A stretch of DNA of 24,889 nt from a virus, in the IMG/VR virus record IMGVR_UViG_3300025141_000700, positions 1-24,889 of that record; one strand, 5' to 3'. The notes below the pieces were generated by a model. The model worked only from the letters and a program-made list of their open reading frames with translations, had not been told where the DNA came from and did no database searches. Of the stretch, positions 4,686 to 24,889 are shown one piece after another. The position numbers and the translations under genes are program-made. Position 1 is the first letter of the stretch; every line of letters begins with the position of its first letter.

Positions 4686-5348
4686 ATGACTCTTAATAAA
4701 CTCCCAATAGTAGGTCTTTCCCATATCGCCCATATGTATGGGAAGACACCAGAAGAAACCATCCTGTACTATGCCCGTGTATCCAACCCTAAGAATCAAT
4801 CCAAGGATAATCCAAAGTTACTCACCTATCTAATCGAGAATGAACATTGGTCTCCATTTGAGATGGTCTCCATGTGTTTAGACATTGAGACAACACGGGA
4901 CATAGCACGACAGATACTTAGGCATAGATCATTCTCATTCCAAGAATTTTCACAAAGATATTCAGAGGTAGACTTAAACTGGAACAGGAGATCAGCCCGG
5001 TTACAAGACAAAGAGAATAGACAGAACTCCCATGAGTTAGACCCTGACCTCCATGAACATCGGACATTATCCCAAGAGTGGGAATGGAAACAGTTTGATG
5101 TGATAGAGGCATCAGAGAGGGCATATAGGTGGGCTCTTGAAAAAGGAATAGCAAAAGAGCAAGCCCGTGCCATCCTCCCTGAAGGACTAATATCAACCCG
5201 ACTGTATATGCATGGGACAATCAGAAGCTGGATTCATTACACCGATCTGAGAACCAAACCTGAGACACAAAAAGAACACCGGGCTGTCGCCCTTGAATGT
5301 CAGAGAATTCTTTTTGAAGTTTGTCCTAGTTTAAACAAGGAGTACTAA
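4686..5348 (+). CDS. thyX: FAD-dependent thymidylate synthase ThyX
   Basis: 220 residues, the normal length for ThyX. It carries the ThyX motif as RHRSFSFQEFSQR (79-91; family pattern RHRxxSxxxxSxR), plus HWSPFE at 54-59 and a C-terminal ARAILPEGL...WIHYTDLRT-like segment typical of the family. It methylates dUMP to dTMP using methylenetetrahydrofolate, FAD and NADPH, working as a tetramer in the cytoplasm. With the deaminase upstream and the RNR further on it supplies phage DNA precursors. The start follows AAAAGGAAATAA, an acceptable ribosome-binding site. Its TAA lies inside a tandem decamer repeat. Confidence 0.95.
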   Translation: MTLNKLPIVGLSHIAHMYGKTPEETILYYARVSNPKNQSKDNPKLLTYLIENEHWSPFEMVSMCLDIETTRDIARQILRHRSFSFQEFSQRYSEVDLNWNRRSARLQDKENRQNSHELDPDLHEHRTLSQEWEWKQFDVIEASERAYRWALEKGIAKEQARAILPEGLISTRLYMHGTIRSWIHYTDLRTKPETQKEHRAVALECQRILFEVCPSLNKEY

Positions 5349-5954: not shown

Positions 5955-6201
5955 ATTAGACAGCTTAGAAAAAAACATCATGAAGACATGGACTATACTG
6001 GAGGATCTCCATTCTGTACTTGAAAACACAGATGAGAACGGAAACTATACTGGGCAGATAGCTAACACAACATCATCAACTCTTATCAAATCAATCGTGG
6101 TTCTATATGCGGTACATTTTGAAGACCTCTTTAAATCATATGAGAAAATGGTTGATACTGTCAATTCTATTGAATGGACCCCGCCAACTGAAAAACACTG
6201 A
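5944..6201 (+). CDS. Unknown 85-residue helical protein
   Basis: Overlaps the preceding gene by 11 bases, with GGAG upstream. Largely helical, beginning with an acidic amphipathic helix (MQAELDSLEKNIMKTWTILE) and holding a hydrophobic helix around residues 50-62 (TLIKSIVVLYAVHFEDLF) that is too charged to be a clear membrane span. No motif or family recognised. It ends 11 bases before the methyltransferase gene. Confidence 0.7.
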   Translation: MQAELDSLEKNIMKTWTILEDLHSVLENTDENGNYTGQIANTTSSTLIKSIVVLYAVHFEDLFKSYEKMVDTVNSIEWTPPTEKH

Positions 6202-6212
6202 GGATAGACAAC

Positions 6213-6983
6213 ATGTTAAAAGTGCTTGACTTATTCAGTGGGATAGGAGGATTTAGTCTTGGACTCGAAAAAACAGGGGGCTTTAAAACCACCGCCTTCT
6301 GCGAAATCAACCAGTATGCCTGCGCAGTCTTGCGAAAGCACTGGCCCGATGTCCCCCTCTATGAAGACGTCAGAGAACTTACCTCTGACCGACTCAAAGC
6401 AGACGGAGTTACCGTTGATGTCATCTGCGGGGGATTCCCCTGCCAAGACATCAGCACCGCAGGAAAAGGCGCAGGCCTTGCCGGAGAGCGAAGCGGGCTC
6501 TGGTCAGAAATCGCCCGTCTTGTTAGCGAACTACGACCTAGATACGTCCTTGTGGAGAACGTCTCAGCGCTGCGTACTCGGGGGTTATCAAGAGTTCTCG
6601 GAGACCTTTCCGAGATCGGGTATGATGCAGAATGGCATTGCATACCAGCTTCCTACATTGGCGCACCGCACCAAAGGGACCGGATATGGATTATGGCCTA
6701 CAGCAGCAGCACGGGACTGGAAGGATACACCGGGGATGGCGAGGACTGCGGTGAACCCGGACGGTTCGGTACGAAAGCGGGTGGACCAGTTAGCAAGGGC
6801 AGTCTACTCTGCGGAGGACTCCCAAAAGGGAGATGGCCATCTGAACCCGACGTGGGTCGAGTGGCTCATGGGATACCCAACAGAGTGGACCGCCTTAAGT
6901 GCCTCGGAAATGCCCTCGTCCCGCAAATCCCCGAAATGATTGGACATGCAATAATCCACCAACTGGAACAGACTAATGCCTGA
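6213..6983 (+). CDS. C5-cytosine DNA methyltransferase
   Basis: 256 residues with the ordered motifs of the C5-methyltransferases: I, DLFSGIGGFSLG (6-17); IV, GGFPCQ with catalytic Cys77; VI, ENV (115-117); VIII, QRDR (154-157); IX/X, RVDRLKCLGNALVPQ (224-238). It transfers a methyl group from SAM to cytosine C5 in DNA, most likely protecting phage DNA from host restriction, since no partner endonuclease is seen. The region between motif VIII and IX, which reads the target sequence, is only ~65 residues, so the enzyme is far smaller than typical members (300-450). The gene is more GC-rich than its neighbours and carries a long second reading frame. It overlaps the helicase gene by 8 bases. 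Confidence 0.92.
   Translation: MLKVLDLFSGIGGFSLGLEKTGGFKTTAFCEINQYACAVLRKHWPDVPLYEDVRELTSDRLKADGVTVDVICGGFPCQDISTAGKGAGLAGERSGLWSEIARLVSELRPRYVLVENVSALRTRGLSRVLGDLSEIGYDAEWHCIPASYIGAPHQRDRIWIMAYSSSTGLEGYTGDGEDCGEPGRFGTKAGGPVSKGSLLCGGLPKGRWPSEPDVGRVAHGIPNRVDRLKCLGNALVPQIPEMIGHAIIHQLEQTNA
6259..6939 (+). CDS. Overprinted 226-codon ORF inside the methyltransferase gene (+1 frame)
   Basis: An uninterrupted frame shifted +1 relative to the methyltransferase and fully nested in it. The first possible start after an in-frame TAG (6244) is TTG 6259, preceded at 8 bases by AGGAGG; that purine run is also the codons for Gly-Gly of motif I. The product has motifs I recall as recurring in annotated phage and prophage proteins: SLWRTSQRC, SGMMQNGIAYQLP, LWPTAAARDWKD and LNPTWVEWLMGYPTEW, ending SEMPSSRKSPK. 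Their recurrence, aligned with conserved methyltransferase motifs in the other frame, argues for a real or at least long-maintained double frame. Biochemical function unknown. Alternatively it is a by-product of the methyltransferase codons that gene callers have repeatedly annotated. Confidence 0.5.
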   Translation: MDSKKQGALKPPPSAKSTSMPAQSCESTGPMSPSMKTSENLPLTDSKQTELPLMSSAGDSPAKTSAPQEKAQALPESEAGSGQKSPVLLANYDLDTSLWRTSQRCVLGGYQEFSETFPRSGMMQNGIAYQLPTLAHRTKGTGYGLWPTAAARDWKDTPGMARTAVNPDGSVRKRVDQLARAVYSAEDSQKGDGHLNPTWVEWLMGYPTEWTALSASEMPSSRKSPK

Positions 6984-8700
6984 AGCTACATCATCTAGGT
7001 TTCTCAGACACACCTCATGTGAAGCATGTGGTAGCAGTGATGCTAATGCAGTGTACGAAGACACCTATTCTAATGGATCTCAGGCGAACAGAACATACTG
7101 TTTCTCCTGTGAAAAAACGGATATGAATATGAACCTAGACAACACAAATACCTATACCCATACTTCCTCTCCCTCCTACTCCACAGCCAGTAATGGCAAT
7201 GGTCATGGCGGAAGAAAGGAATTCTCCGATATACCTGATCGTAAGATTACCAAGGACACAGCAAAAACTTTTGGTGTACTTGTATCCAAGGATACAAATG
7301 GTGAGATTACATCCCATGCCTATCCTTATTATGACAAAGACGGGCAGGAGATTGTAGCCTACAAGAAACGCATTTGCCTTGATAACCAAGGTAATGCTCA
7401 AAAGAATTTCACCATCCTTAATAATACAAAAAAAGCTGGATCATCCTTTGATCAAGCTTCGCTCTTTGGTCAGAACCTCTTCCCGCCTAGAGGTAAATTC
7501 ATCACGATCACAGAGGGTGAGCTAGACTGTCTTGCAACCTATCAAATGCTGGGTAGCAAATGGCCTGTGGTCTCTCTTCGAACCGGCGCACAGGGTGCAG
7601 AGAAGGATATCAGGAAGAACCTAGATTTCTTTAATTCATATGAAAAGATTGTCCTCTGTCTTGACAATGATGAGCCCGGTAAAAAGTCGGCTCAGAAATT
7701 ATCAGAGATCTTTGAGATCGGTAAGTGTCTTATCATGCCGATGTCCCGCAAAGATCCCTGCGAATACCTACAGAACAATGACACCACCACGTTTACCCGT
7801 GAATGGTGGAGGGCTAAACCGGTATCACCCGATGGCATTATTTCCGGTGAAGATATCTGGGAACTTGTATCAACTGAGCCTGAGAATAACTCCATCTCCT
7901 ATCCATGGGAAGATCTGAATAAACTAACCTACGGAATCAGGCGTGGTGAGCTTGTTACAATTACAGCAGGATCAGGGATTGGTAAGAGTGCCATCCTCAG
8001 AGAAGTGATCTACCACATAATTCGAAACACAGAATCCCGTATTGGGGCGCTGTTCATGGAGGAGAGTGTACGACGAACAGCCCAAGGCATTATGTCGATT
8101 GATGCCAATAAGCAATTCCACCTACCTAATACCGTGTACACACAAGAAGAATTAAAATCATCTTTTGATAACACAGTAGGCTGCGGTCGAGTCTTTCTCT
8201 ATGACCACTTCGGATCATCTGAGATTGATAACATAGTTAACCGCATCCGGTATATGGCCAAGGGTCTGGAGTGTGAGTATATATTCTTAGATCATATCTC
8301 CATCGTGGTCTCCTCACAGGAAAATGGAGACGAGAGAAAAGCCCTTGACGAAATTATGACCAAGCTTAGAATGCTTGTGCAGGAAACAAACATCGGGCTC
8401 TTTGTGGTATCCCACCTGAAGCGTCCACAAAATGGAGGAGGTCATGAACTTGGAGGGGTTACTACCCTTGCACAGTTAAGGGGATCGGCGGGTATAGCCC
8501 AGCTATCAGATATTGTTCTGGGACTCGAACGTAACTCACAGGATGATGATCCCACCATCCGAAACACAACCATCGTAAGGGTTCTAAAAAATAGATTCTC
8601 TGGTGAGACCGGACCTACATCACGACTACTCTGGAATAAAGAGACAGGCCGTCTCAATGAGACCTTTGAAGAACTCGAACAATTAGAGGAGACATTTTAA
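6976..8700 (+). CDS. T7 gp4-like DNA primase-helicase
   Basis: 574 residues. An N-terminal zinc finger (C15, C18, C42, C45) is followed by a TOPRIM primase fold with TEGELD (179-184) and CLDNDEPG (228-235), then a RecA/DnaB-type helicase. The helicase shows Walker A AGSGIGKSA (331-339), Walker B IFLDHIS (436-442), VSHLKRP (478-484) and LRGSAGIAQLSDIVLGLERN (501-520), all close to T7 gene 4. It unwinds the fork and makes primers. The acidic C-terminus ending in Phe (EQLEETF) matches the T7 tail that docks on the polymerase. It starts inside the methyltransferase 3' end. Zn finger, primase and helicase are all intact. Confidence 0.93.
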   Translation: MPEATSSRFLRHTSCEACGSSDANAVYEDTYSNGSQANRTYCFSCEKTDMNMNLDNTNTYTHTSSPSYSTASNGNGHGGRKEFSDIPDRKITKDTAKTFGVLVSKDTNGEITSHAYPYYDKDGQEIVAYKKRICLDNQGNAQKNFTILNNTKKAGSSFDQASLFGQNLFPPRGKFITITEGELDCLATYQMLGSKWPVVSLRTGAQGAEKDIRKNLDFFNSYEKIVLCLDNDEPGKKSAQKLSEIFEIGKCLIMPMSRKDPCEYLQNNDTTTFTREWWRAKPVSPDGIISGEDIWELVSTEPENNSISYPWEDLNKLTYGIRRGELVTITAGSGIGKSAILREVIYHIIRNTESRIGALFMEESVRRTAQGIMSIDANKQFHLPNTVYTQEELKSSFDNTVGCGRVFLYDHFGSSEIDNIVNRIRYMAKGLECEYIFLDHISIVVSSQENGDERKALDEIMTKLRMLVQETNIGLFVVSHLKRPQNGGGHELGGVTTLAQLRGSAGIAQLSDIVLGLERNSQDDDPTIRNTTIVRVLKNRFSGETGPTSRLLWNKETGRLNETFEELEQLEETF

Positions 8701-8702
8701 AA

Positions 8703-9719
8703 ATGGTACAGGTAAATAAGAAAGCAATTGTAACCGGAGTGCGTGGCCAAGATGGGTACTATCTAACAGAATTACTCCTTAAAAAAGGATACATAGTTAC
8801 AGGGGTAACCAGAAGACGGAGCGATAAAACAGAACCCCTCAGTCATGAGATGAAATACTTCCCTCATTATAAAGAGGTAGAAGGAGACATCTGTGATCCA
8901 TCATTTATAATGAGCCTACTACAAGTTACAAAACCAGATGAGTTCTATAATCTCGCTGCCCAATCCCATGTTGGTCATTCATTCAAATGTCCTGATACAA
9001 CCTTCGAGACAAACGCTACAGCAGTCTTGAATATACTTGAAGCGATTAGACTAACATCGCCTATGACTAAATTTTATCAGGCGTCAACATCTGAAATGTA
9101 CGGTACAGTAAAGGAAGGGATAGCGACTGAGCTAACCCCGCTAAAGCCCTTCTCACCCTATGGTGTAGCCAAGACAGCAGCACATAATCTTGTGTCAGTT
9201 TATAGAGATTCCTATGATATCTGGGCTTGTTCTGGAATCCTCTTCAATCATGAGAGTGAGCGAAGGGGTCATGATTTTGTAACCAGAAAAATTACATCTT
9301 GGATTGCCTCAAATATTTCTAAGATTGAAACAGACCATCTTGACACGAAGCTCTTGCTTGGTAATATCAATTCAGTGAGGGATTGGGGATACGCCCCTGA
9401 TTATGTTTATGGGATGTGGCTCATGCTTCAAGCCCAATCCCCCGATGATTATGTTTTGGCAACTGGGGAAACATACTCTATTAAAGATTTATTAAACGTG
9501 GCCTTTAATTATATCGGCGTCACTGATTGGACCCCATATGTAAAGCACAGCACTCCAGAAAACATACGACCAAAGGATGTGACTAGATTATGTGGATCAC
9601 CTCGAAAGGCAAAGGAGTTACTCAATTGGGAACCGAAGGTTTCATTTCGGGAAATGATAGGAAGGATGATAGACCATGACATTGCCCAATTCAATAAGCC
9701 GCCACATACTAGACATTGA
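8703..9719 (+). CDS. gmd: GDP-mannose 4,6-dehydratase
   Basis: 338 residues of an extended short-chain dehydrogenase. The NADP-binding TGVRGQDG (11-18) is the Gmd form of the Rossmann motif. The catalytic set T129, E131, Y153 and K157 has the same spacing as the Thr-Glu-Tyr-Lys of E. coli Gmd, with SPYGVAK (151-157). FNHESERRG and VRDWGYAPDYV are further Gmd signatures. It converts GDP-mannose to GDP-4-keto-6-deoxymannose, the precursor of fucose, rhamnose and perosamine nucleotides. No reductase or aminotransferase follows in the window. It lies 3 bases after the helicase stop and overlaps the polymerase start by 44 bases, an odd place for a sugar enzyme. Glycosyltransferase genes lie ~8 kb on. 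Confidence 0.9.
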   Translation: MVQVNKKAIVTGVRGQDGYYLTELLLKKGYIVTGVTRRRSDKTEPLSHEMKYFPHYKEVEGDICDPSFIMSLLQVTKPDEFYNLAAQSHVGHSFKCPDTTFETNATAVLNILEAIRLTSPMTKFYQASTSEMYGTVKEGIATELTPLKPFSPYGVAKTAAHNLVSVYRDSYDIWACSGILFNHESERRGHDFVTRKITSWIASNISKIETDHLDTKLLLGNINSVRDWGYAPDYVYGMWLMLQAQSPDDYVLATGETYSIKDLLNVAFNYIGVTDWTPYVKHSTPENIRPKDVTRLCGSPRKAKELLNWEPKVSFREMIGRMIDHDIAQFNKPPHTRH

Positions 9720-13463: not shown

Positions 13464-13840
13464 TAGACTTTGAACCCAATGAGACAGAAGATAAAGATCT
13501 CGATTATGTCTCTTTGAATATGCTCAGGGTTTCAGACCATGATTGGAGCCCTGAGCAAATTCTCTGGCTGGCTGTTATAGCTCAAGCCCTCTTAGATGCG
13601 ACCAAAGAACCACGGGAGACAGACTCTGCTGCTCTGATAGAATATAGAAGATCAGCTACACGATGGCTTACGACAGTATCAGCATGTGTTACTTCCAAAG
13701 ATATGGAAGAGGTCTGTGAACTTGCCGGTATTTCTCCCACTAGTATAAGAACCCTTTCGTCTAATATAATATATGAGGGGCGTCCTTTTGAAAGATTTAG
13801 AATAAACGCCCTCTTGGATTATGCAACAAGGGAGTTATAA
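13460..13840 (+). CDS. Unknown phage protein, TTG start
   Basis: 126 residues. The frame begins at TTG in a TTGA overlap with the HTH gene; no ATG gives the full frame. An acidic N-terminus is followed by a hydrophobic helix (WSPEQILWLAVIAQALLDAT), then TRWLTTVSACVTSKDMEEVC and ELAGISPTSIRTL. The last portion is like a segment I associate with small phage proteins that end in a 'CELAGxxP' helix. No function can be assigned. It ends 2 bases before the next gene. Confidence 0.7.
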   Translation: MIDFEPNETEDKDLDYVSLNMLRVSDHDWSPEQILWLAVIAQALLDATKEPRETDSAALIEYRRSATRWLTTVSACVTSKDMEEVCELAGISPTSIRTLSSNIIYEGRPFERFRINALLDYATREL

Positions 13841-13842
13841 AA

Positions 13843-14073
13843 ATGGATGTAGGTTTATGGGTTGTGTTTGTTGTTTATGCCTTTTCAGCATCACCTGCGA
13901 TGGATATGCCCCCTATGTACGTGGGTTCAGATCGAGAAGAGTGCGAATCAATTAGTGACTTTTTCAACTCTAATCTCATTGAAGGAGATGAATATAAAAC
14001 ATCAGTGTGCCTCCAAGTAGGTGACACATATAACCCGGAAAAAGATTTTGTTCCTGAATTAGAAGTTATCTAA
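13843..14073 (+). CDS. Small probably exported protein
   Basis: 76 residues starting with a hydrophobic segment (VGLWVVFVVYAFSASPA, about residues 3-19) that could be a signal peptide ending near ASPAMD or a membrane anchor; the usual N-terminal positive charge is missing. The remainder is acidic with two cysteines (C27, and C53 in SVCLQVG) that could form a disulfide in the periplasm. No family recognised. No strong Shine-Dalgarno, but it is coupled closely to the upstream gene. Confidence 0.6.
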   Translation: MDVGLWVVFVVYAFSASPAMDMPPMYVGSDREECESISDFFNSNLIEGDEYKTSVCLQVGDTYNPEKDFVPELEVI

Positions 14074-14096
14074 AACTAAGAAACTAGGAATTTAAA

Positions 14097-14387
14097 ATGG
14101 AAGATAATTTAAACTTTTCTAAGTTTATTAAAAAAGAATTTATACCTTATTTAGAAGACGATATGAATTGTGAAGATAAAGTAAACCACCCGAGCCACTA
14201 TCAATCAGGGGGTCTTGAGGTTATTGATATTATCGAAACCAAGCTTTCTTCAGATCAGCTAAAAGGATATTACCTTGGTAACATCTTAAAATATGTTTTT
14301 AGACATGAATATAAAGACGGTATTACTGATCTGAAGAAAGCCCGTTGGTACTTAGATAGATTGATAACCTATAATGAAAAAACCTGA
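14097..14387 (+). CDS. DUF3310 protein (nucleotide kinase-like module)
   Basis: 96 residues. After an acidic ~25-residue lead, the DUF3310 pattern is clear: VNHPSHYQSGGLEVIDIIE (29-47), then GYYLGNILKYVFRHEYKDG and DLKKARWYLDRL. The same domain occurs in T7 gp1.7, which has nucleotide kinase activity, and in many phage 'SaV-like' proteins. A role in phage nucleotide metabolism fits the MazG-like and RNR genes that follow. AGGAATTTAAA precedes the ATG. It overlaps the next gene by 14 bases. Confidence 0.85.
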   Translation: MEDNLNFSKFIKKEFIPYLEDDMNCEDKVNHPSHYQSGGLEVIDIIETKLSSDQLKGYYLGNILKYVFRHEYKDGITDLKKARWYLDRLITYNEKT

Positions 14388-14622
14388 TATACGAAAAATA
14401 ATATGGAACGATGCCCGTGGAGGCTGCTCCAACTGGACATTGTATGACCCGGATGATTATGTACCTCCTGCGGTCACTACAATAGGTCAGGTATTTAAAG
14501 AAACAAAAGATTACATTGTACTACTATCCTCTTTCTATGAGGATGAACCCGGTGTGGTACACCACCATAACGGCGTTCTTATTTTAAAAAAGACTATCAT
14601 TGAACAAAGCACATTAACATAA
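14374..14622 (+). CDS. Conserved-looking small phage protein
   Basis: 82 residues, overlapping the DUF3310 gene by 14 bases. The pattern IIWNDARGGCSNWTLYDPDD near the start, a central TIGQVFKETKDYIVLLSSF and a C-terminal GVLILKKTIIEQ give a small beta-rich fold that I associate with a widespread phage family of unknown role (Trp-x-Asp-Ala and later Trp, then 'GxxxxETxDYIxL'). No catalytic motif seen. Confidence 0.7.
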   Translation: MKKPDIRKIIWNDARGGCSNWTLYDPDDYVPPAVTTIGQVFKETKDYIVLLSSFYEDEPGVVHHHNGVLILKKTIIEQSTLT

Positions 14623-14639
14623 AGAAACGGAGAGGTAAG

Positions 14640-15050
14640 ATGAATATCGACGACTACCAAAGCAGTGCAGCAAAAACAGCCGTGTATCCTGATACAGCAA
14701 AGTACCACTACCCAGCGATGGGATTAGCCGGAGAAGCTGGAGAGGTTACTAACAAGTTAAAGAAGGTTATGCGTGGCGACACTACACTAGATGATATTAA
14801 AGAGGATGTTCTGCATGAAATTGGAGACGTACTATGGTATATCGCAGCACTCTGTAATGATTTAGAAACACCGATGTCCACGGTGGCTCAGCTAAATTTA
14901 GATAAACTCAACGGACGTCTGGAAAGGAATGTTCTTGGCGGTAAAAAAATGAGAGATAAAATGCTGGAACAGCAGGCAGTCATTGACCATTTAAAGGCCA
15001 AGACAGAGAAGCTAGAGGAACAAATCAGTTTCTCTTTGCGTCTCCCCTAA
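14640..15050 (+). CDS. MazG-like nucleotide pyrophosphohydrolase
   Basis: 136 residues. The MazG/all-alpha NTP pyrophosphatase fold is indicated by GLAGEAGEVTNKLKKV (28-43) and DVLHEIGDVLWYI (56-68), with E32, E35, E60 and D63 as the metal-binding acidic residues. Such enzymes hydrolyse (d)NTPs or (p)ppGpp-type substrates. Phage copies are thought to adjust nucleotide pools or the host starvation response. After ~residue 105 a Lys/Glu-rich coiled-coil tail has been added. CGGAGAGGTAAG precedes the ATG. Confidence 0.88.
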   Translation: MNIDDYQSSAAKTAVYPDTAKYHYPAMGLAGEAGEVTNKLKKVMRGDTTLDDIKEDVLHEIGDVLWYIAALCNDLETPMSTVAQLNLDKLNGRLERNVLGGKKMRDKMLEQQAVIDHLKAKTEKLEEQISFSLRLP

Positions 15051-15080
15051 AACCTATTATACAATCAAGGTTCACGACAA

Positions 15081-15281
15081 ATGTCAGATCGAAAAATCCC
15101 TGATTATCTCACTTCTTGGAAAGATAGCGTACATCTTGCTAACCGTATCCGAAAATATTGGGCACGGAGAGGCGTGACTGTGAATGTTGTTGTTGAGAAA
15201 TTTATGATGGGAAGTGCTGGGCCTTACTACCAGATAAGATCTGATCTTTTTATGAAAGGATCCCAAGATGAAGACAAATAA
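15081..15281 (+). CDS. Unknown 66-residue protein upstream of RNR
   Basis: Basic N-terminal helix (SWKDSVHLANRIRKYWARRG) followed by a beta segment (VTVNVVVEKFMMG, YYQIRSDL) and a charged end. No family recognised. The ribosome-binding site is weak (AAGGTT). Its 3' end overlaps the RNR start by 14 bases and carries that gene's AAAGGA site, suggesting coupled expression. Confidence 0.65.
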   Translation: MSDRKIPDYLTSWKDSVHLANRIRKYWARRGVTVNVVVEKFMMGSAGPYYQIRSDLFMKGSQDEDK

Positions 15282-17929: not shown

Positions 17930-18709
17930 ATGAACGATAAAGGGTTTACCCCTACGACTATCTATGTCGGTTACGATAACCGTGAAGACGTAGCGTATCA
18001 GGTATGTAGATCATCTCTCTTAACCAATTCTACTTCACTTAGATCAGAAGATATTATCCCCCTTAAGCATCAAGACCTCCGAGCCAACAAAGTATTCTGG
18101 AGAGGGTGGCGTATTGACCACAGCGGTCAGTACTGGGATGATATTGATGGCCGTCCTTTCTCAACAGAGTTTTCCTTTACCCGTTTTCTTGTGCCAGAAC
18201 TGGCTCGTAGACAGGGTATAACAGAAGGACCGGTTATTTTTGTTGATTGTGATTTCCTGTTTATAGATGATATCCAGCAGTTAATCATGAATCACTTTGA
18301 TCCATCCAAGGCGGTGCAGGTGGTTAAGCACGACTTCAAACCAACCAGTACCGTAAAGATGGATAACAAAATCCAAATTACATATTTCATGAAGCTTTGG
18401 TCATCTCTTATGATCTTTAACATGGGACACCCAGAGAATAATAAGCTGGATTTAGCCACAGCAAACACGGCTTCCGGCTCTTTTCTACACGGGTTCGGAT
18501 GGTTATCTTCCCCCGATCTTATTGGAGATATACCACCGGAGTGGAATTTTATCGGGGATGAAAGTGAAAATGTAAAACCTTCTGCTGTTCATTATACAGA
18601 GGGTGGACCATGGTTTAGGGATTACAAAAATTGTCCCTTTTCGAAGGAATGGTATGAGCAATTAAATATTGCCTTTGAAGAAGACCACTATAAAGTTTTG
18701 GAATGGTAG
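17930..18709 (+). CDS. GT-A fold glycosyltransferase
   Basis: 259 residues. IYVGYDNRED (11-20), FSTEFSFTRFLVPEL (77-91) and the DxD motif in VIFVDCDFLF (D106, D108) show a nucleotide-sugar-dependent, metal-binding GT-A enzyme of the GT8-like kind often seen in marine phages. Near the end, SAVHYTEGGPWF matches the usual 'HY.G..KPW' closing segment of such enzymes. No signal peptide or membrane segment, so it acts in the cytoplasm. Donor and acceptor are unknown. Together with gmd and the fused protein just downstream it forms a sugar-transfer module. Confidence 0.8.
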   Translation: MNDKGFTPTTIYVGYDNREDVAYQVCRSSLLTNSTSLRSEDIIPLKHQDLRANKVFWRGWRIDHSGQYWDDIDGRPFSTEFSFTRFLVPELARRQGITEGPVIFVDCDFLFIDDIQQLIMNHFDPSKAVQVVKHDFKPTSTVKMDNKIQITYFMKLWSSLMIFNMGHPENNKLDLATANTASGSFLHGFGWLSSPDLIGDIPPEWNFIGDESENVKPSAVHYTEGGPWFRDYKNCPFSKEWYEQLNIAFEEDHYKVLEW

Positions 18710-18715
18710 AATTAA

Positions 18716-20974
18716 ATGACTGCATCTTATAAAATTGATTTAACGGCTAACATCACAGTCTTGACATCCTTTAAAGTTGATGACTATGCAACATACGCTA
18801 GAAGGTTTTTTGAATCATGGGCAAAATTCTGGCCTAAGAACATTAAGCTAACGGCGTACTACAATGGTGGGAAGCTTCCCAAAGATGTCGTTAGAGCTAG
18901 GAATATTTCTTACGTATCTTTGGACAAGAATGTTGACCTAAATTCTTTTAAGGAAAGAAACTCCCAGTTTAATGGCGGCTCTCCCTATAATTACCGTATG
19001 GATGCTATTAAGTTTTCCCATAAAGTTTTTGCTATTTGCGATCATGTAAAACATATGGCGTCTAAGGGGGACATGGGATGGTTAGTCTGGATTGATGCTG
19101 ATGTCTTGACAACTAAAAAGATTGATAGTAATTTTCTAAATCTTATTTTCCCTGACAGTTCAGATATTGTACACTTAGGTAGACAGGGTATCATTGATTA
19201 TTCAGAGACGGGTTTTCTAGGTTTCAACCTTACGTATGATAAGGCCCATACCTTTCTACGAGACTGGCGCACTCTCTACACCACGAATGAAATCCTTGGT
19301 CTACGAGAGTGGACAGATGCTTTTGCCTTTGAACGTCTCCTCAACCTGCATAAGAACCATGGAATTACGGCACACAATCTATCACCTCATGCAGCTTCTC
19401 TCGAAGCTTTTGATTACTCTCCCCTCACAGAGTATTTTATTCACTTCAAAGGTGGGAGAAAAAGCATTCTCAATGCTCCGTATGAACCCGGTCCTGCTCG
19501 TTATAAGGACATTGAGAAATTCATCGAACACTACGGAAGCACAAAACTTCTCGAAGTTGGAACATGGAACGGAAAGAGAGCCCTCCGCCTCATTACGGCT
19601 GCGCTTCAAAATTCTGATTCTGTCCATTATGTTGGACTGGACGTATTTGAAGATGGTAATGAAGAACTGGACCAAGAAGAAGGGAATGTAAAGCAGAGGA
19701 CATATCTGCATAACGTCAAGTCTCTTCTTAATACGTTCTCAAAGGATGCTCTCCTTGAAGAGAAGAAGGTATCCTTCGAGCTTATCAAAGGTAACTCACG
19801 GGAAACCCTACCTGATATCATGTCACGGTATTCCCCCGACTTTGCATACATTGACGGCGGTCATTCAATTGAAACCATCCGATCAGATTACGAGAACCTG
19901 AAGGATGTGCCCGTTATTGTGTTTGATGATTATTATCGCCCCGATGGCGAAGATAATATGTTTGATATTACCAAGTACGGTTGCAATCAAATCGTCAATC
20001 ACGAATTACCTGAAGGGCATCAGAAGGGCGTCATCCCCTCAAGGGATGGGGTTCAGGGTGGGGGTATTACATGCCTTGCCTATGTATGTCACCCATCAAT
20101 GCCGGAGGCACCAGACTTTGAAAACGTGACGGTACCCATCAAGGTGCAGCCACGGGATTGTGTACCTGATGAGTATATCCACAACAACATCAAGGCTAAC
20201 CACCTCAATATGGATAAGTGGATTACCAGAAGATACCATTGGAACACGGAAGAAGTGGTCTGTGTTTCAGCAGGCCCCACGATTAAACAGGATCTTGAAA
20301 ACATCCGTGCCAGATACGAACAGGGGCACAAGGTTGTATGTGTCAAGCACTCTCATAATTTCCTAATTGAGAATGACATTATACCGTGGGGTTGTATCAT
20401 TCTTGATCCACGAGATCTTGATGGTATTTCAACTCATGGGGTTAAGAGACGAGACCTTCTTGAGAATCCTAATATGTCTACCTATTATTTTGTAGCAAGT
20501 ATGACAGACCCTTCTGTTACATATCATCTAAAGAAGAAGGGGGCTAAGATCATAGGCTGGGATGCTTATTCTAATGCTGTAGCATCCTTTGAGCATGTAA
20601 ACGATAGGATGATGATTACGGGAGGTACCTGCGCTGCTATGCGGGCTATTGCTTTAATGCACACTCTTGGATTTAGAACCTTTCATCTGTTTGGTTATGA
20701 CGCCAGCATGGATCCTGAAGGCACCTATGACTTGACAGAGAAGGACGATAATGATCGTCAGAAGTATTTACAAGTTACAGTCGGTGAAGATAGCTTCATC
20801 ACCACTGGTGAGCTATTAGCAATGGGTCAAGACATGGAACAGTTCTTCCAGAGGGACGATGATGCCGAGTACCACGTATACGGTAAGGGCGGTATGGGCT
20901 ATGCTCTATGGCAGATTGAAAAAGAAAAGAGAAACACAGATACGTATAAATCATTTCTTGAAATTGGAGTATAA
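18716..20974 (+). CDS. Three-part protein: glycosyltransferase + SAM methyltransferase + DUF115-like
   Basis: 752 residues in one open frame. Residues ~1-255: a glycosyltransferase-like part with WLVWIDADVL (D127, D129 as DxD) and YFIHFKGGRKS. Residues ~262-460: a class I SAM methyltransferase with LLEVGTWNG (278-286), GLDVFED (307-313), FAYIDGGHS (376-384) and VIVFDDYY. Residues ~500-752: a DUF115/MptE-like part with VCVSAGPTI (515-523) and TGGTCAAMRAIALMHTLGFR (635-654) followed by LFGYD; relatives include flagellin Maf glycosyltransferase accessory proteins. It probably builds and methylates a glycan, but the acceptor is unknown. It starts 6 bases after the neighbouring glycosyltransferase stop. 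Confidence 0.8.
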   Translation: MTASYKIDLTANITVLTSFKVDDYATYARRFFESWAKFWPKNIKLTAYYNGGKLPKDVVRARNISYVSLDKNVDLNSFKERNSQFNGGSPYNYRMDAIKFSHKVFAICDHVKHMASKGDMGWLVWIDADVLTTKKIDSNFLNLIFPDSSDIVHLGRQGIIDYSETGFLGFNLTYDKAHTFLRDWRTLYTTNEILGLREWTDAFAFERLLNLHKNHGITAHNLSPHAASLEAFDYSPLTEYFIHFKGGRKSILNAPYEPGPARYKDIEKFIEHYGSTKLLEVGTWNGKRALRLITAALQNSDSVHYVGLDVFEDGNEELDQEEGNVKQRTYLHNVKSLLNTFSKDALLEEKKVSFELIKGNSRETLPDIMSRYSPDFAYIDGGHSIETIRSDYENLKDVPVIVFDDYYRPDGEDNMFDITKYGCNQIVNHELPEGHQKGVIPSRDGVQGGGITCLAYVCHPSMPEAPDFENVTVPIKVQPRDCVPDEYIHNNIKANHLNMDKWITRRYHWNTEEVVCVSAGPTIKQDLENIRARYEQGHKVVCVKHSHNFLIENDIIPWGCIILDPRDLDGISTHGVKRRDLLENPNMSTYYFVASMTDPSVTYHLKKKGAKIIGWDAYSNAVASFEHVNDRMMITGGTCAAMRAIALMHTLGFRTFHLFGYDASMDPEGTYDLTEKDDNDRQKYLQVTVGEDSFITTGELLAMGQDMEQFFQRDDDAEYHVYGKGGMGYALWQIEKEKRNTDTYKSFLEIGV

Positions 20975-20976
20975 AA

Positions 20977-21246
20977 ATGAGTGTTATTAATTTCCCCGGT
21001 GGGTCTATTACGGAAAGCCCTGCTTCACAAGAAGATAAACTTAACAGTATCCGAAATGATATCTCTAAATTAGAAGAGTATGTTGAAGAAGCTCAAGACT
21101 ATGTTGATGGTGTACTAATGATCAGTTTTTCTAATAATGAGTGTCGTCATTGGATTTCTCCGGGGTTGTCCGTAGGCGATGTATACTTTATGCTTGGTCG
21201 TATCCAGAATGCTCTGCTTGAGTACGCAGACAATGTTACAGAATAG
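20977..21246 (+). CDS. Unknown small phage protein
   Basis: 89 residues starting 2 bases after the previous stop, with TTGGAGTATAAAA upstream. The N-terminus MSVINFPGG is followed by an acidic helix (ISKLEEYVEEAQDYVDGVLM) and a second helix near the end (VYFMLGRIQNALLEYADNV). No motif is recognised. It sits between the sugar genes and the lysis-like cassette. Confidence 0.7.
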   Translation: MSVINFPGGSITESPASQEDKLNSIRNDISKLEEYVEEAQDYVDGVLMISFSNNECRHWISPGLSVGDVYFMLGRIQNALLEYADNVTE

Positions 21247-21701: not shown

Positions 21702-21816
21702 TATCTGTTCCATCATGGAACCGATCCTCATATCACATGATGATTCCCTGACGGAAGACACCGCCAAACAAATTTTAATTCATAATGAGTTTTATGATAG
21801 AGCCTGTGACGGCTGA
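21622..21816 (+). CDS. o-spanin candidate (Rz1-like lipoprotein), embedded start
   Basis: 64 residues beginning inside the i-spanin gene in another frame, the classic Rz/Rz1 arrangement. MKSARLLSACLLLTLLSACS is a lipoprotein signal with lipobox LSAC, so Cys19 would be lipidated and the mature ~46-residue protein held in the outer membrane. CAGGAAAAGA precedes the ATG. Unlike many Rz1 proteins it is not Pro-rich. Its 3' end overlaps the leftward gene's 3' end by 25 bases. Confidence 0.75.
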   Translation: MKSARLLSACLLLTLLSACSTNGAGIDICSIMEPILISHDDSLTEDTAKQILIHNEFYDRACDG

Positions 21817-24800
21817 TATCTAGGATTCCGTTCGAGTCTTTCTTGTTCTTGTCTTCTGATTGCAAGAGGTAGATCGTCAACTGGTACATCAATACCCTCT
21901 GCTCTTCTAAAGTCTTGCATAGCGGATCTCGTGACAGAACCCATATCTATTCTAATAGGTTCTGAGGGGTTCTCAATGTTGTGCTGTCTGACTTCATCCA
22001 TAATTGCCCGGATTTCCCCCTGAATTATTTCGACTTCCTCAGAATCACCATTTGCATTAGCGATGTACAACTCAACAAAAATATTCTTTAGTGCATTCCT
22101 GAATGAACGTGACCGGGCATTATAGTTTTGCTCTGCCTTAATTTGTTGCCATGTTACATTACGGGCCTCAACGATTGATGTCGGTGTGAAGCCTGCGGCC
22201 TGTATGGCTATATCAAATAAATCAACCCCTCCAAAAGCCTCAACTGGTAATTCCCTACCACCCATGGTTACTCTACGGCTTCCCTGAGCGGCTAGTAGTA
22301 TATTACGAAATACAGGTGGGAACATTTCTACAACGGCTAAATCGTAGTCACCTGCGTTCACCCGCCTTTTTACATTAGTTACCTGTCCGATAATACCACC
22401 GGCAGGTCCGAAGAAATCTGGAAGAGATGCTTCTCTACCACCTGTTACAATTTGTACGAGACCTCGTGGTCCTTCAATACCAGTTCTTTTGCCCAACTCC
22501 ACTCCAACCAAGGAGGGTAGACCACGATAAGCAAGGGCCAAAGCAACTTCTTGTGGCAACCCAAAATCATAAAGCATATCAGTGAGCATTGTCTCGGGAT
22601 CTTCATCATCTCCCCAGATGTTATTAATCATGGATACAATGTCACCAACTATGGCTACGGCAGGTACACCTATGATTCCGCCAGTGGTAACAAAAGCTAG
22701 GCCTGAGAGAAGGGCCATGCGTTTATAAATTTTACGGGTTTCAGCATCCAGCTTAATTGGGTTACCATTCTCATCAAAACCACCGGCCCCTGTAAATCCA
22801 TCCTTGAGAGCCTTGAAGAAATAACGCATGACCTGTGTCTGATATGGCAGAAACTGGGTTACAACCCCTGAGATTGGACCACGATTGTATCTGGGCCTGT
22901 CTGTCTTATCGAATTTAAACTGTGTCTTCTCCACAGAGAACTGTATAAAGTTATCAAGATTAAATTCGCCGTACCTATTCTTACCCTCTGCGTCAAACAT
23001 AAGTTTAGCTTTTGCGGGATCTTTCTTATATACTTCATAAGCAGCAATCGCCGTTGCGAAACGGTTGAACTGCTCCACCCAAGCGAAGGCAAAGCCTGAC
23101 CCTCTTATACCAATCTCAACGCCCCGACCAATTTTTGAGTTTAACAACAAGGGTTGCTGTGATAGCTGACCCGAAACATCTGATAACTGAACAGGGGCCA
23201 AGATAGGCTGCGCTCGCTGTAGAGCTTCAAACAATTGTTGATCCATGCCCGCAGGTTTTTTTCTCAAATCAAAAGGTTTGTTGGAAAAATCTAAGAACTG
23301 AAGACCCCTCGACATTCCCGCTTTTTTTGGATCACTTAGTGGGAATTCTTTAGTCAACTTTAATGCTAGTTTAAAACCTTTTATAAGTGCGGCTGTACCC
23401 TCTGCTGGATTTTTCGCAATGCTCATAATGAAAGGCATCGTTGTATGCAAAAAAGAAGTAAGGTTGACCCCAGCAGATGACAGGTTACCACCAAGCCACC
23501 ACGTAAACGCTATTCGTTTGGCAGTATCAGAATGCCTGTGTTGTTGTGAAACGTATCCATCTTCACCCCAAGTCTTTTGAGCTAGATCTTTGTAAGCCTG
23601 TGGTATCGTATTATCATTTTTTATGGCATCTAGCTCGTTATTTAGCCTTCTGTTTAAAGGCATTCTGGCAATCATGTTTGCCTGTGACGATACATGTTGA
23701 TTAAAAGTTTGGCTCAGATTGGTAGATAGATTATCTCTTGTTAAATCCCCCGGTATAGATTTTGAGTTTGGGATTAGGCGTTTACCAGCTTCAGTCGCAA
23801 TTCTTCTTCCAAATGCTTTTCTAAACGCACTAAAATTTTCAGACGCCTCAGTAGACGCAGCAGCATGATCCAATATATCCATAAGCGTATTAGAGGTTGC
23901 TGGACTTAGGTCTGCAACGAAATCATTAAAAGTTAATTCAAAAACACCCTTATTTCCCGTCGGAGTATAGTCAGGATTTTCTTCAAAGAATTTATTTCGT
24001 TTTTCTTCAGCATTTCGCTGCGCATCCTTAATAAATTTAGGATCATCAACAACCTTAAAACCTACCCGCTCCACTCCGAAACGATCTGTAAATTTATACT
24101 TAAAACCAAACCTACCTTTTCTCATGGCAGGCATATAAAGGAGTTTGCGCTGCTTTTGAAGATCGTTGAAATGATCTCTAAATTCTCGGAGATCTTCAAT
24201 TAAGGCGTTGTCGACATCCTCTATTCCTTCTAAACTTTGGACCAGAGAATCAAACTTGTCCCCATCTCTTATATCTTCAAGGGTTATATAATCAGGGGGA
24301 AAAGTATCGCCTAACTGACTATTAATTTCATCAATACCAGTAAGTAAGTAAGCCTCTACCTTTTGATCATAGATAAAATCGAAGACTTCTCTAAGTTTAA
24401 AAGCAGTATCAGCCAACTGTGTTCCAGAATCAATTCGGAAAGTACCTAAGCCGGGAATTGGGTGCACAATGTCCTGATTAAAAAAGTCTTCAATTGTCAC
24501 ATCCTTTTCATCACTAAGAATCTTTTCAATTGTCTGTTCGTTTGTGATCCCAAGCTCTCGCAGAGCCGCCGCATCCAATGGAGTGTCTGGTTGTGTAGAC
24601 GCCTCCATTATAGTCCGGGCAGCATGTAACAATCCATTAACCTGAGTTTTTTCTTGTGGAGTATGCCTCTCCAAAAAACCTGTGCTGAGCCTGTCCTCAA
24701 CACCCACAATTACGTTGTTAAATCTCTCTTCTATTTCTCGGGTGACTCGCCCAATATCTTTCAAGCCTGCATACTGTGATACAGCATTACCAAATGTATT

Positions 24801-24889
24801 TATATAAGCGCCTAGCGCAGCAGCCAGATCTTTAAACTGATTACCAAGTCCCTTTGGCATTCCCTTTTCTACAAACTTGGCAGCATCTT
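21792..24889 (-). CDS. Very large leftward protein, probably virion-internal/polyvalent, 5' end beyond window
   Basis: At least 1022 residues from the ATG at 24860, but the frame stays open for the 29 remaining bases (reading AAKFVEKG before that Met), so the true start lies beyond the edge. Features: acidic helical N-terminal part; two hydrophobic stretches, one near residue 450-475 (TWWLGGNLSSAGVNLTSFLH) and one near 708-738 (LLSGLAFVTTGGIIGVPAVA); between them RYNRGPISGVVTQFLPYQTQ, similar in style to the large polyvalent protein-associated regions of phages; and a charged helical C-terminus. Size and membrane-active stretches suggest an injected internal virion protein. No catalytic motif is visible in this portion. 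It converges on and overlaps the o-spanin gene. Confidence 0.8.
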   Translation of the reverse strand, partial: DAAKFVEKGMPKGLGNQFKDLAAALGAYINTFGNAVSQYAGLKDIGRVTREIEERFNNVIVGVEDRLSTGFLERHTPQEKTQVNGLLHAARTIMEASTQPDTPLDAAALRELGITNEQTIEKILSDEKDVTIEDFFNQDIVHPIPGLGTFRIDSGTQLADTAFKLREVFDFIYDQKVEAYLLTGIDEINSQLGDTFPPDYITLEDIRDGDKFDSLVQSLEGIEDVDNALIEDLREFRDHFNDLQKQRKLLYMPAMRKGRFGFKYKFTDRFGVERVGFKVVDDPKFIKDAQRNAEEKRNKFFEENPDYTPTGNKGVFELTFNDFVADLSPATSNTLMDILDHAAASTEASENFSAFRKAFGRRIATEAGKRLIPNSKSIPGDLTRDNLSTNLSQTFNQHVSSQANMIARMPLNRRLNNELDAIKNDNTIPQAYKDLAQKTWGEDGYVSQQHRHSDTAKRIAFTWWLGGNLSSAGVNLTSFLHTTMPFIMSIAKNPAEGTAALIKGFKLALKLTKEFPLSDPKKAGMSRGLQFLDFSNKPFDLRKKPAGMDQQLFEALQRAQPILAPVQLSDVSGQLSQQPLLLNSKIGRGVEIGIRGSGFAFAWVEQFNRFATAIAAYEVYKKDPAKAKLMFDAEGKNRYGEFNLDNFIQFSVEKTQFKFDKTDRPRYNRGPISGVVTQFLPYQTQVMRYFFKALKDGFTGAGGFDENGNPIKLDAETRKIYKRMALLSGLAFVTTGGIIGVPAVAIVGDIVSMINNIWGDDEDPETMLTDMLYDFGLPQEVALALAYRGLPSLVGVELGKRTGIEGPRGLVQIVTGGREASLPDFFGPAGGIIGQVTNVKRRVNAGDYDLAVVEMFPPVFRNILLAAQGSRRVTMGGRELPVEAFGGVDLFDIAIQAAGFTPTSIVEARNVTWQQIKAEQNYNARSRSFRNALKNIFVELYIANANGDSEEVEIIQGEIRAIMDEVRQHNIENPSEPIRIDMGSVTRSAMQDFRRAEGIDVPVDDLPLAIRRQEQERLERNPRYQPSQALS

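Follow-up and report, generated by a model that had tools for sequence, protein, structure and literature searches.

The window, as we call the whole 24,889-nucleotide stretch of viral DNA analysed here, raises the question of what a phage might make with one protein that combines glycosyltransferase, methyltransferase and DUF115-like regions. An earlier note, made from the letters alone, had claimed that a single unbroken frame joins a DxD glycosyltransferase part, a complete class I methyltransferase and an MptE/DUF115-like part, and that a second glycosyltransferase precedes it. The frame runs from an ATG to a stop without a break (18716-20974, plus strand; 752 aa). Domain searches and structure predictions of the separate segments, which that note had proposed as a check, placed all three in the named fold classes, and each of these claims was borne out. 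We conclude that the fusion is a real, conserved and accessory glycan-assembly module. Its product is very probably a soluble cytoplasmic enzyme performing several steps of glycan assembly, as judged from sequence and structural models.

Domains of the fusion and its upstream partner

The order of the domains, GT-A (GT6-like), O-methyltransferase and MptE-like/DUF115 (Maf-like), is the same in 71 non-redundant homologues. Two Pfam families, PF13578 and PF01973, scored over their curated cut-offs in the fusion protein, and a search of the PDB with the whole protein sequence gave no match. An AlphaFold2 model built on a 30-sequence alignment (mean pLDDT 78.5, pTM 0.41) contains three confident domains separated by weakly predicted linkers, with low-confidence stretches at residues 245-257 and 469-481; the relative placement of the domains is not readable from this model.

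Domain 1 (18746-19489, plus strand; residues about 11-258) adopts a GT-A fold closest to family GT6. The best structural matches were BoGT6a (4ayl; Z 14.3, rmsd 3.6, 187 aligned residues) and human GTB (Z 13.7), and Foldseek retrieved human GTB and alpha-1,3-GalT at E about 5e-07 to 1e-05. By sequence, the first ~250 residues matched neither a Pfam family nor a solved structure in the PDB. The DxD motif reads DAD (19094-19102, plus strand; residues 127-129), and both Asp residues are present in 71/71 three-domain homologues. Fold and DxD are thus shared with the GT6 enzymes (ABO, alpha-1,3-GalT, BoGT6a), from which domain 1 differs in having no significant Pfam membership. The residue following W-T-D201, a tentative counterpart of the GT6 catalytic Glu, is Ala or Ser.

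Domain 2 (19490-20140, plus strand; residues 259-475) is a class I SAM-dependent O-methyltransferase. Methyltransf_24 (PF13578) matched residues 279-406 with E=8.3e-11 and 43.1 bits against a cut-off of 26.3, and the fold match (about 259-465) was to TrmR and COMT-type O-methyltransferases (Z 14.9-14.5). SAM motif I, EVGTWNG (19553-19573, plus strand; residues 280-286), has E280, G282, T283, W284 and G286 in 71/71 three-domain proteins, as does D309, the acidic residue after strand 2; domain 2 therefore has the features of the class. When its sequence profile was compared with solved structures, the only credible relatives were entries for MycF, in a weak match (E=0.0033) that aligned D380, D404 and D405 with Asp residues of MycF. 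We take the Asp triad of MycF-type enzymes to have a metal role. A DGGH motif (19853-19864, plus strand; residues 380-383) may, with D404-D405, form a metal or substrate site, as suggested by this alignment and by conservation (D380 in 68/71, H383 in 67/71, D404 in 71/71 and D405 in 68/71). The best match of the segment is thus a sugar O-methyltransferase, since the substrate of the 3''-O-methyltransferase MycF is an antibiotic sugar. MycF and TylF resemble domain 2 in being the best sequence match among solved structures and in the aligned Asp residues; unlike domain 2 they are stand-alone antibiotic enzymes, and general COMT/TrmR folds take the top structural scores.

Domain 3 (20141-20971, plus strand; residues 476-752) belongs to the MptE-like/DUF115 family and is a candidate Maf-like glycosyltransferase. 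PF01973 matched residues 507-664 (E=5.3e-15, 56.1 bits against a cut-off of 34.6) and was also over its cut-off in 12/12 related records. In fold, the domain (about 476-723) matched MptE of M. jannaschii (8sd5; Z 16.8, rmsd 3.2, 196 aligned residues), showing the fold of this archaeal HPPK; Maf of Magnetospirillum (5mu5) scored Z 20.3 across domains 2 and 3 jointly, with an rmsd of 13.7. In sequence, the domain-3 profile found Maf 5mu5 at E=8.1e-05 and did not retrieve MptE even at E 10. NCBIfam pointed to the flagellin-modification protein PseD (E=2.6e-05; 23.1 bits against a full-length cut-off of 670), and with domain 3 alone as query WaaZ, a Kdo transferase, was matched faintly (E=0.069). 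The Maf N-terminal family, PF20157, had no match in the fusion protein at E<=1. The fusion is accordingly related to the central DUF115 of Maf and does not have the full-length Maf architecture, as judged by PF20157 and the PseD score.

Maf enzymes use CMP-Neu5Ac or CMP-Kdo as donor and exposed Ser/Thr as acceptor (PMC11339370). Domain 3 is like Maf/PseD (DUF115; 5mu5, CbMaf) in fold and sequence, and differs in being joined to GT6-like and methyltransferase domains, with the Maf N-terminal family undetected; Maf/PseD act on Ser/Thr of surface proteins, and the substrate of the fusion is, as far as known, not flagellin.

The second glycosyltransferase, here called GTup (17930-18709, plus strand; 259 aa), ends 6 bases ahead of the fusion. 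Its fold is that of LgtC (1g9r/1ss9, Z 16.7), 3tzt matching at Z 15.8, and its DxD, DCD at residues 106-108, has both Asp residues invariant in 23 sequences. GTup thereby shares fold and DxD with GT8 enzymes (LgtC, glycogenin), and differs from them in lacking significant Pfam membership: PF01501 matched weakly (E=0.066, 13.2 bits), below its cut-off of 24.3. The C-terminal motif of GT8 is H-x-x-G-x-x-K-P-W; HYTEGGPW in GTup resembles it without the Lys. Of 128 loci, 116 have a GTup homologue close to the fusion and 101 a ribonucleotide reductase; these counts are not independent, since some of the loci overlap or come from phages that are nearly identical. No hydrophobic segment long enough to span a membrane was found in GTup, the fusion or Gmd, which suits a cytoplasmic protein acceptor and is compatible with LPS too.

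Across the 71 three-domain proteins the catalytic motifs of all parts are almost invariant, and little or no variation is seen in VKH, LDPR and GGT of domain 3, suggesting that every domain has been kept as if active. Synonymous sites are mostly saturated in the dN/dS comparison, and dN is 0.11-0.21 in every domain.

Occurrence and placement of the fused and split forms

Loci fetched from IMG/VR held 114 fusion ORFs, 92 of them different. Domains 1, 2 and 3 follow one another in the same order in 71, while about 20 lack this methyltransferase; a domain 1-3 form has about 540 aa, and five fusions of 618-657 aa have ~140 residues between domains 1 and 3 that the domain-2 profile does not match. 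The closest relatives of the window fusion share 72-100% identity with it, and ~30 more share 36-45%. The domain-3 tree, weakly supported at its root and at several forks, can accommodate two losses of domain 2 inside the fusion family.

Separate genes joined by faulty assembly or annotation would give the same picture, and one related contig, L052, does carry them split. Against this, the same junctions recur in 71 different three-domain proteins from many metagenomes, at 36-82% identity among those aligned, and a predicted viral protein in BFVD, A0A6J7X5Q0 (714 aa), aligns across 752 columns at 32% identity. The near-identity of contig L003, which matches the window across 12,174 bases except for one mismatch, and the recurrence in dozens of contigs exclude an artefact of assembly or chance, and we regard that explanation as already refuted. 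A survey of fused and split versions had been suggested in the earlier note, a gene split in all relatives being the outcome that would point to such an artefact; it gave one clear four-gene split against 92 different fusions.

The BFVD protein very probably shares the three-domain architecture, judging from its alignment. It comes from an uncultured Caudovirales phage, and its public entry is titled just 'Methyltransferase domain containing protein'. The three-domain fusion is thus already in public data, apparently undescribed, and among open-access papers we found none describing it.

In the split form on L052, a 16.3 kb record, all four parts are separate adjacent genes: DUF115 (5977-6834) and methyltransferase (7481-8086), both with Pfam support, a glycosyltransferase (6822-7484) and a GTup-like gene (8044-8802). 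The finding of the same parts both fused and split is a classic sign of a shared pathway. By our reading of the translations, this cassette follows scaffold, capsid and head-decoration-like genes and precedes tail genes, with gmd, an FkbM-like methyltransferase and terminase upstream. In three other contigs (L180, L153, L209) GTup and a domain 1-3 fusion are flanked by terminase on one side and portal-like genes on the other, again named from translations. Such a location beside structural genes shows late expression at most. The window cassette itself is outside the late module: its neighbours are small genes and ribonucleotide reductase, and the structural genes are on the other strand. An 89-aa ORF (20977-21246, plus strand) begins 2 bases past the fusion; it had no significant family match, and small ORFs lie downstream of the fusion in many relatives (gene clusters 6 and 33). 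In the split-form contig (L062:93-1455) the order is gmd, FkbM-like methyltransferase, large terminase.

The window DNA polymerase is nearest to those of pelagiphages HTVC103P, 104P and 115P (42-43%), and the window GC content is 42.6%. HTVC103P-type phages are described in a published survey together with group IV, an uncultured group that is more distant and has a GC content of 31.9-44.4% (PMC8528129). We infer that the window phage belongs to group IV; it is uncultured and probably marine. In HTVC103P and HTVC115P, the closest cultured relatives, the cassette is absent and replication or nucleotide-reductase genes run directly to the strand switch, which marks the cassette as accessory.

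Among cultured phages only the domain-1 region was found, in Mosig and ct7QV12. In Pelagibacter phage Mosig, separate homologues of GTup and domain 1 adjoin two FkbM methyltransferases and an annotated sulfotransferase. Bacterial genomes gave no match to the full fusion profile, and the domain-3 profile found one phage-like contig there, in a Sneathiella MAG, where its presence may be a binning error. This contig (L221, PAKP01000072.1, Sneathiella sp.) carries GTup and a three-domain fusion in which NTN replaces the DxD of domain 1, a change reminiscent of metal-independent GT6 enzymes such as BoGT6a (4ayl). The Maf N-terminal family was found neither in the family of this MAG nor in control genomes, and this comparison is uninformative.

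Parts of the cassette are also used in several other architectures: in six contigs (L149, L151, L152, L154, L160 and L170) the GTup domain is joined to other segments of no assigned family in proteins of 541-710 aa, and domain-1 homologues occur nearby as genes of their own. Where the fusion has the two-domain form (contigs L082, L075, L090 and others), a 302-aa protein of no assigned family often comes right after it, and these contigs often carry a ManC-C-terminal-like cupin, a 2OG oxygenase and a cytidylyltransferase-like protein.

GDP-mannose 4,6-dehydratase as an accessory part

The window encodes a gmd-like GDP-mannose 4,6-dehydratase (8703-9719, plus strand; 338 aa), identified by PF16363 (357 bits, E=1.5e-106). 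TIGR01472 was by far the best model, but its 344.5 bits fall short of the equivalog cut-off (415), which leaves some doubt about the exact substrate. The earlier note had put gmd in the same transcription unit as the fusion. It is indeed upstream on the same strand, but 8.2 kb from GTup, with gaps of 210, 256 and 217 bases in between, and promoter- or terminator-like sites in the gmd-to-fusion region were no commoner than in shuffled sequence.

The proposal of a dedicated pathway to a methylated 6-deoxysugar holds in part. For it speak gmd in the window clade and in a sister clade, where the order is GTup, fusion, terminase-small-subunit-like gene and gmd, and a methyltransferase closest to MycF. 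As a general description it is not supported. While gmd was present in 14/16 records first tested, it was found in just 3/40 further cassette-bearing records, and we rejected it as a core partner of the cassette; it is a lineage-specific accessory part. Epimerase-family genes numbered one in 11/12 records and none in the twelfth, these 12 yielded no second epimerase or reductase (Fcl/RmlD, fucose or rhamnose synthase type), and a two-domain form without the methyltransferase exists. On the domain-3 tree gmd requires at least 5 state changes, which, with its differing positions, indicates repeated recruitment or loss. An association of gmd with the methyltransferase domain (15/35 methyltransferase-type rows vs 0/16 rows without it; Fisher p=0.002) was discarded as functional evidence, since the tree gives only 1-2 independent pairs.

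Proposed reactions, target and precedents

From the identity, conservation and co-occurrence of the domains, and their location in late or structural modules of several phages, we propose a scheme of donors, reaction order, activities and acceptor. Domain 3, acting like Maf/PseD, would start the chain by placing a sugar on Ser/Thr of a protein; a CMP-activated ulosonic acid of the host, CMP-Kdo for example, is a plausible donor. GTup and the N-terminal GT6-like domain would then lengthen the chain, and the central domain would O-methylate a sugar as its cap; in the window phage, gmd would divert GDP-mannose towards a 6-deoxyhexose donor. The acceptor would be a phage virion protein. We give about even chances to this joint reading of Maf-like transfer, chain extension, methyl cap and virion target. 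CMP-Kdo is available in most Gram-negative hosts, and no CMP-sugar synthetase was found in 27 phage records; any CMP-activated donor would thus have to be the host's. Weighing against the joint reading are the weak PseD match, the lack of a PF20157 match, a domain-3 fold resembling MptE about as well as Maf, and the position of the window cassette outside the late module. Ser/Thr-rich virion (fibre) proteins were considered as a clue to the acceptor and dropped, as they occur equally in cassette-bearing and cassette-free phages and are uninformative.

A virion protein is the target that we favour, and its main rival is a host surface glycan. In an infected cell the enzymes might instead act on capsule, S-layer or LPS/LOS core, for instance keeping other phages from adsorbing. 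LgtC, which GTup resembles, acts on lipooligosaccharide, the faint WaaZ match of domain 3 points the same way, and methylated 6-deoxyhexoses are common in marine O-antigens. On the other hand, no membrane-spanning partner, flippase or lipid-linked initiating enzyme was recognised in the module, the closest sequence relative of domain 3 is a protein glycosyltransferase, and the cassette lies in the head/packaging module of four contigs, an odd place for an early exclusion function. We consider a host-glycan target possible, though rather unlikely. Far less probable is a role of domain 3 in folate supply, for example to a phage ThyX, as an active pterin kinase of the HPPK (MptE) type fused by chance. 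The structural match to MptE would fit such an enzyme, and a ThyX-like gene can be read at 4686-5348; yet the profile that misses MptE finds Maf, NCBIfam points to PseD, and domain 3 accompanies glycosyltransferases in every architecture seen, split L052 included. Glycosylation of phage DNA, for which the DNA glucosyltransferases of T4-like phages offer a parallel (PMC6024577), is hardly plausible here: no gene for a hydroxymethyl or other acceptor base was recognised among the window nucleotide genes (dCMP deaminase, MazG, DNA C5-methyltransferase), and the families matched by the two glycosyltransferase folds have sugars, lipids or proteins as their substrates.

Phage-encoded glycosyltransferases decorate capsid and tail proteins of mycobacteriophages (PMC12363180), and Che8, Corndog and Myrna are thus like the proposed system in phage-encoded virion glycosylation, a likeness at the level of function. 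The nearest functional precedent, in working principle, is chlorovirus PBCV-1 A064R, a 638-aa protein whose three domains, two rhamnosyltransferases and a methyltransferase, build the methylated end of the capsid glycan; PBCV-1 also encodes a GMD, A118R (PMC9614988). The two systems are alike in having one viral protein with three transferase domains and a virus-encoded GMD, and the A064R product is the O-methylated 6-deoxyhexose end of an N-glycan on the capsid. They differ in domain order (GT-GT-MT vs GT-MT-(GT-like)), in the eukaryotic algal host of PBCV-1 and in the missing Maf-like domain of A064R; the likeness is one of principle. Set against two glycosyltransferases plus one methyltransferase, the fusion has one clear GT-A domain, one methyltransferase and a DUF115 domain that we infer to be glycosyltransferase-like. 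The earlier description of the three-part fusion as no known system therefore stands for these domains and not for viral fusions of comparable make-up.

Profile scans of IMG/VR confirmed at least 553 relatives of domain 3 and at least 596 of GTup, making DUF115/MptE-like a common, functionally uninterpreted annotation in environmental phages. The fixed fusion and the split form tie this annotation to glycan assembly and give it a testable reading: phages may possess a compact kit for glycosylating proteins, the prokaryotic counterpart of what A064R does in chloroviruses. A tentative and rather doubtful generalisation is that protein O-glycosylation is widespread among phages, a Maf-like DUF115 priming virion Ser/Thr with host CMP-Kdo or another CMP-ulosonate and GT6-like, GT8-like and methyltransferase domains building and capping the chain. 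The whole protein, the four separate parts of L052 and the two-domain form without methyltransferase are natural constructs for enzymology.

Several further observations were made along the way. Synechococcus phage S-SCSM2R carries annotated KdsB and KdsA, and with them CMP-Kdo synthesis, a few genes away from a GTup homologue (L058, 209814-213339); this is of interest for the idea of a CMP-Kdo donor. On L060 (7601-10801; near-identical contig G001), a run of modification-like genes stands on the minus strand of the tail region beside tail-fibre-like genes, coding for DUF6065 and 2OG-Fe(II) oxygenase, methyltransferase-like, sulfotransferase and polyproline/Hint-like (intein-type) proteins. 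The same contig encodes a 562-aa protein (13511-15199) with 34% Ser/Thr and many near-repeats such as SATNITAGTVTATSIHTP, and a similar protein occurs in contig G005. In the window, a C5-cytosine DNA methyltransferase (6213-6983) is overlapped by a 226-aa TTG frame, and the window ends within a very large virion or DarB-like protein (21792-24887, minus strand), of which it contains the C-terminal part; the counterpart in contig L003 has 1674 aa.
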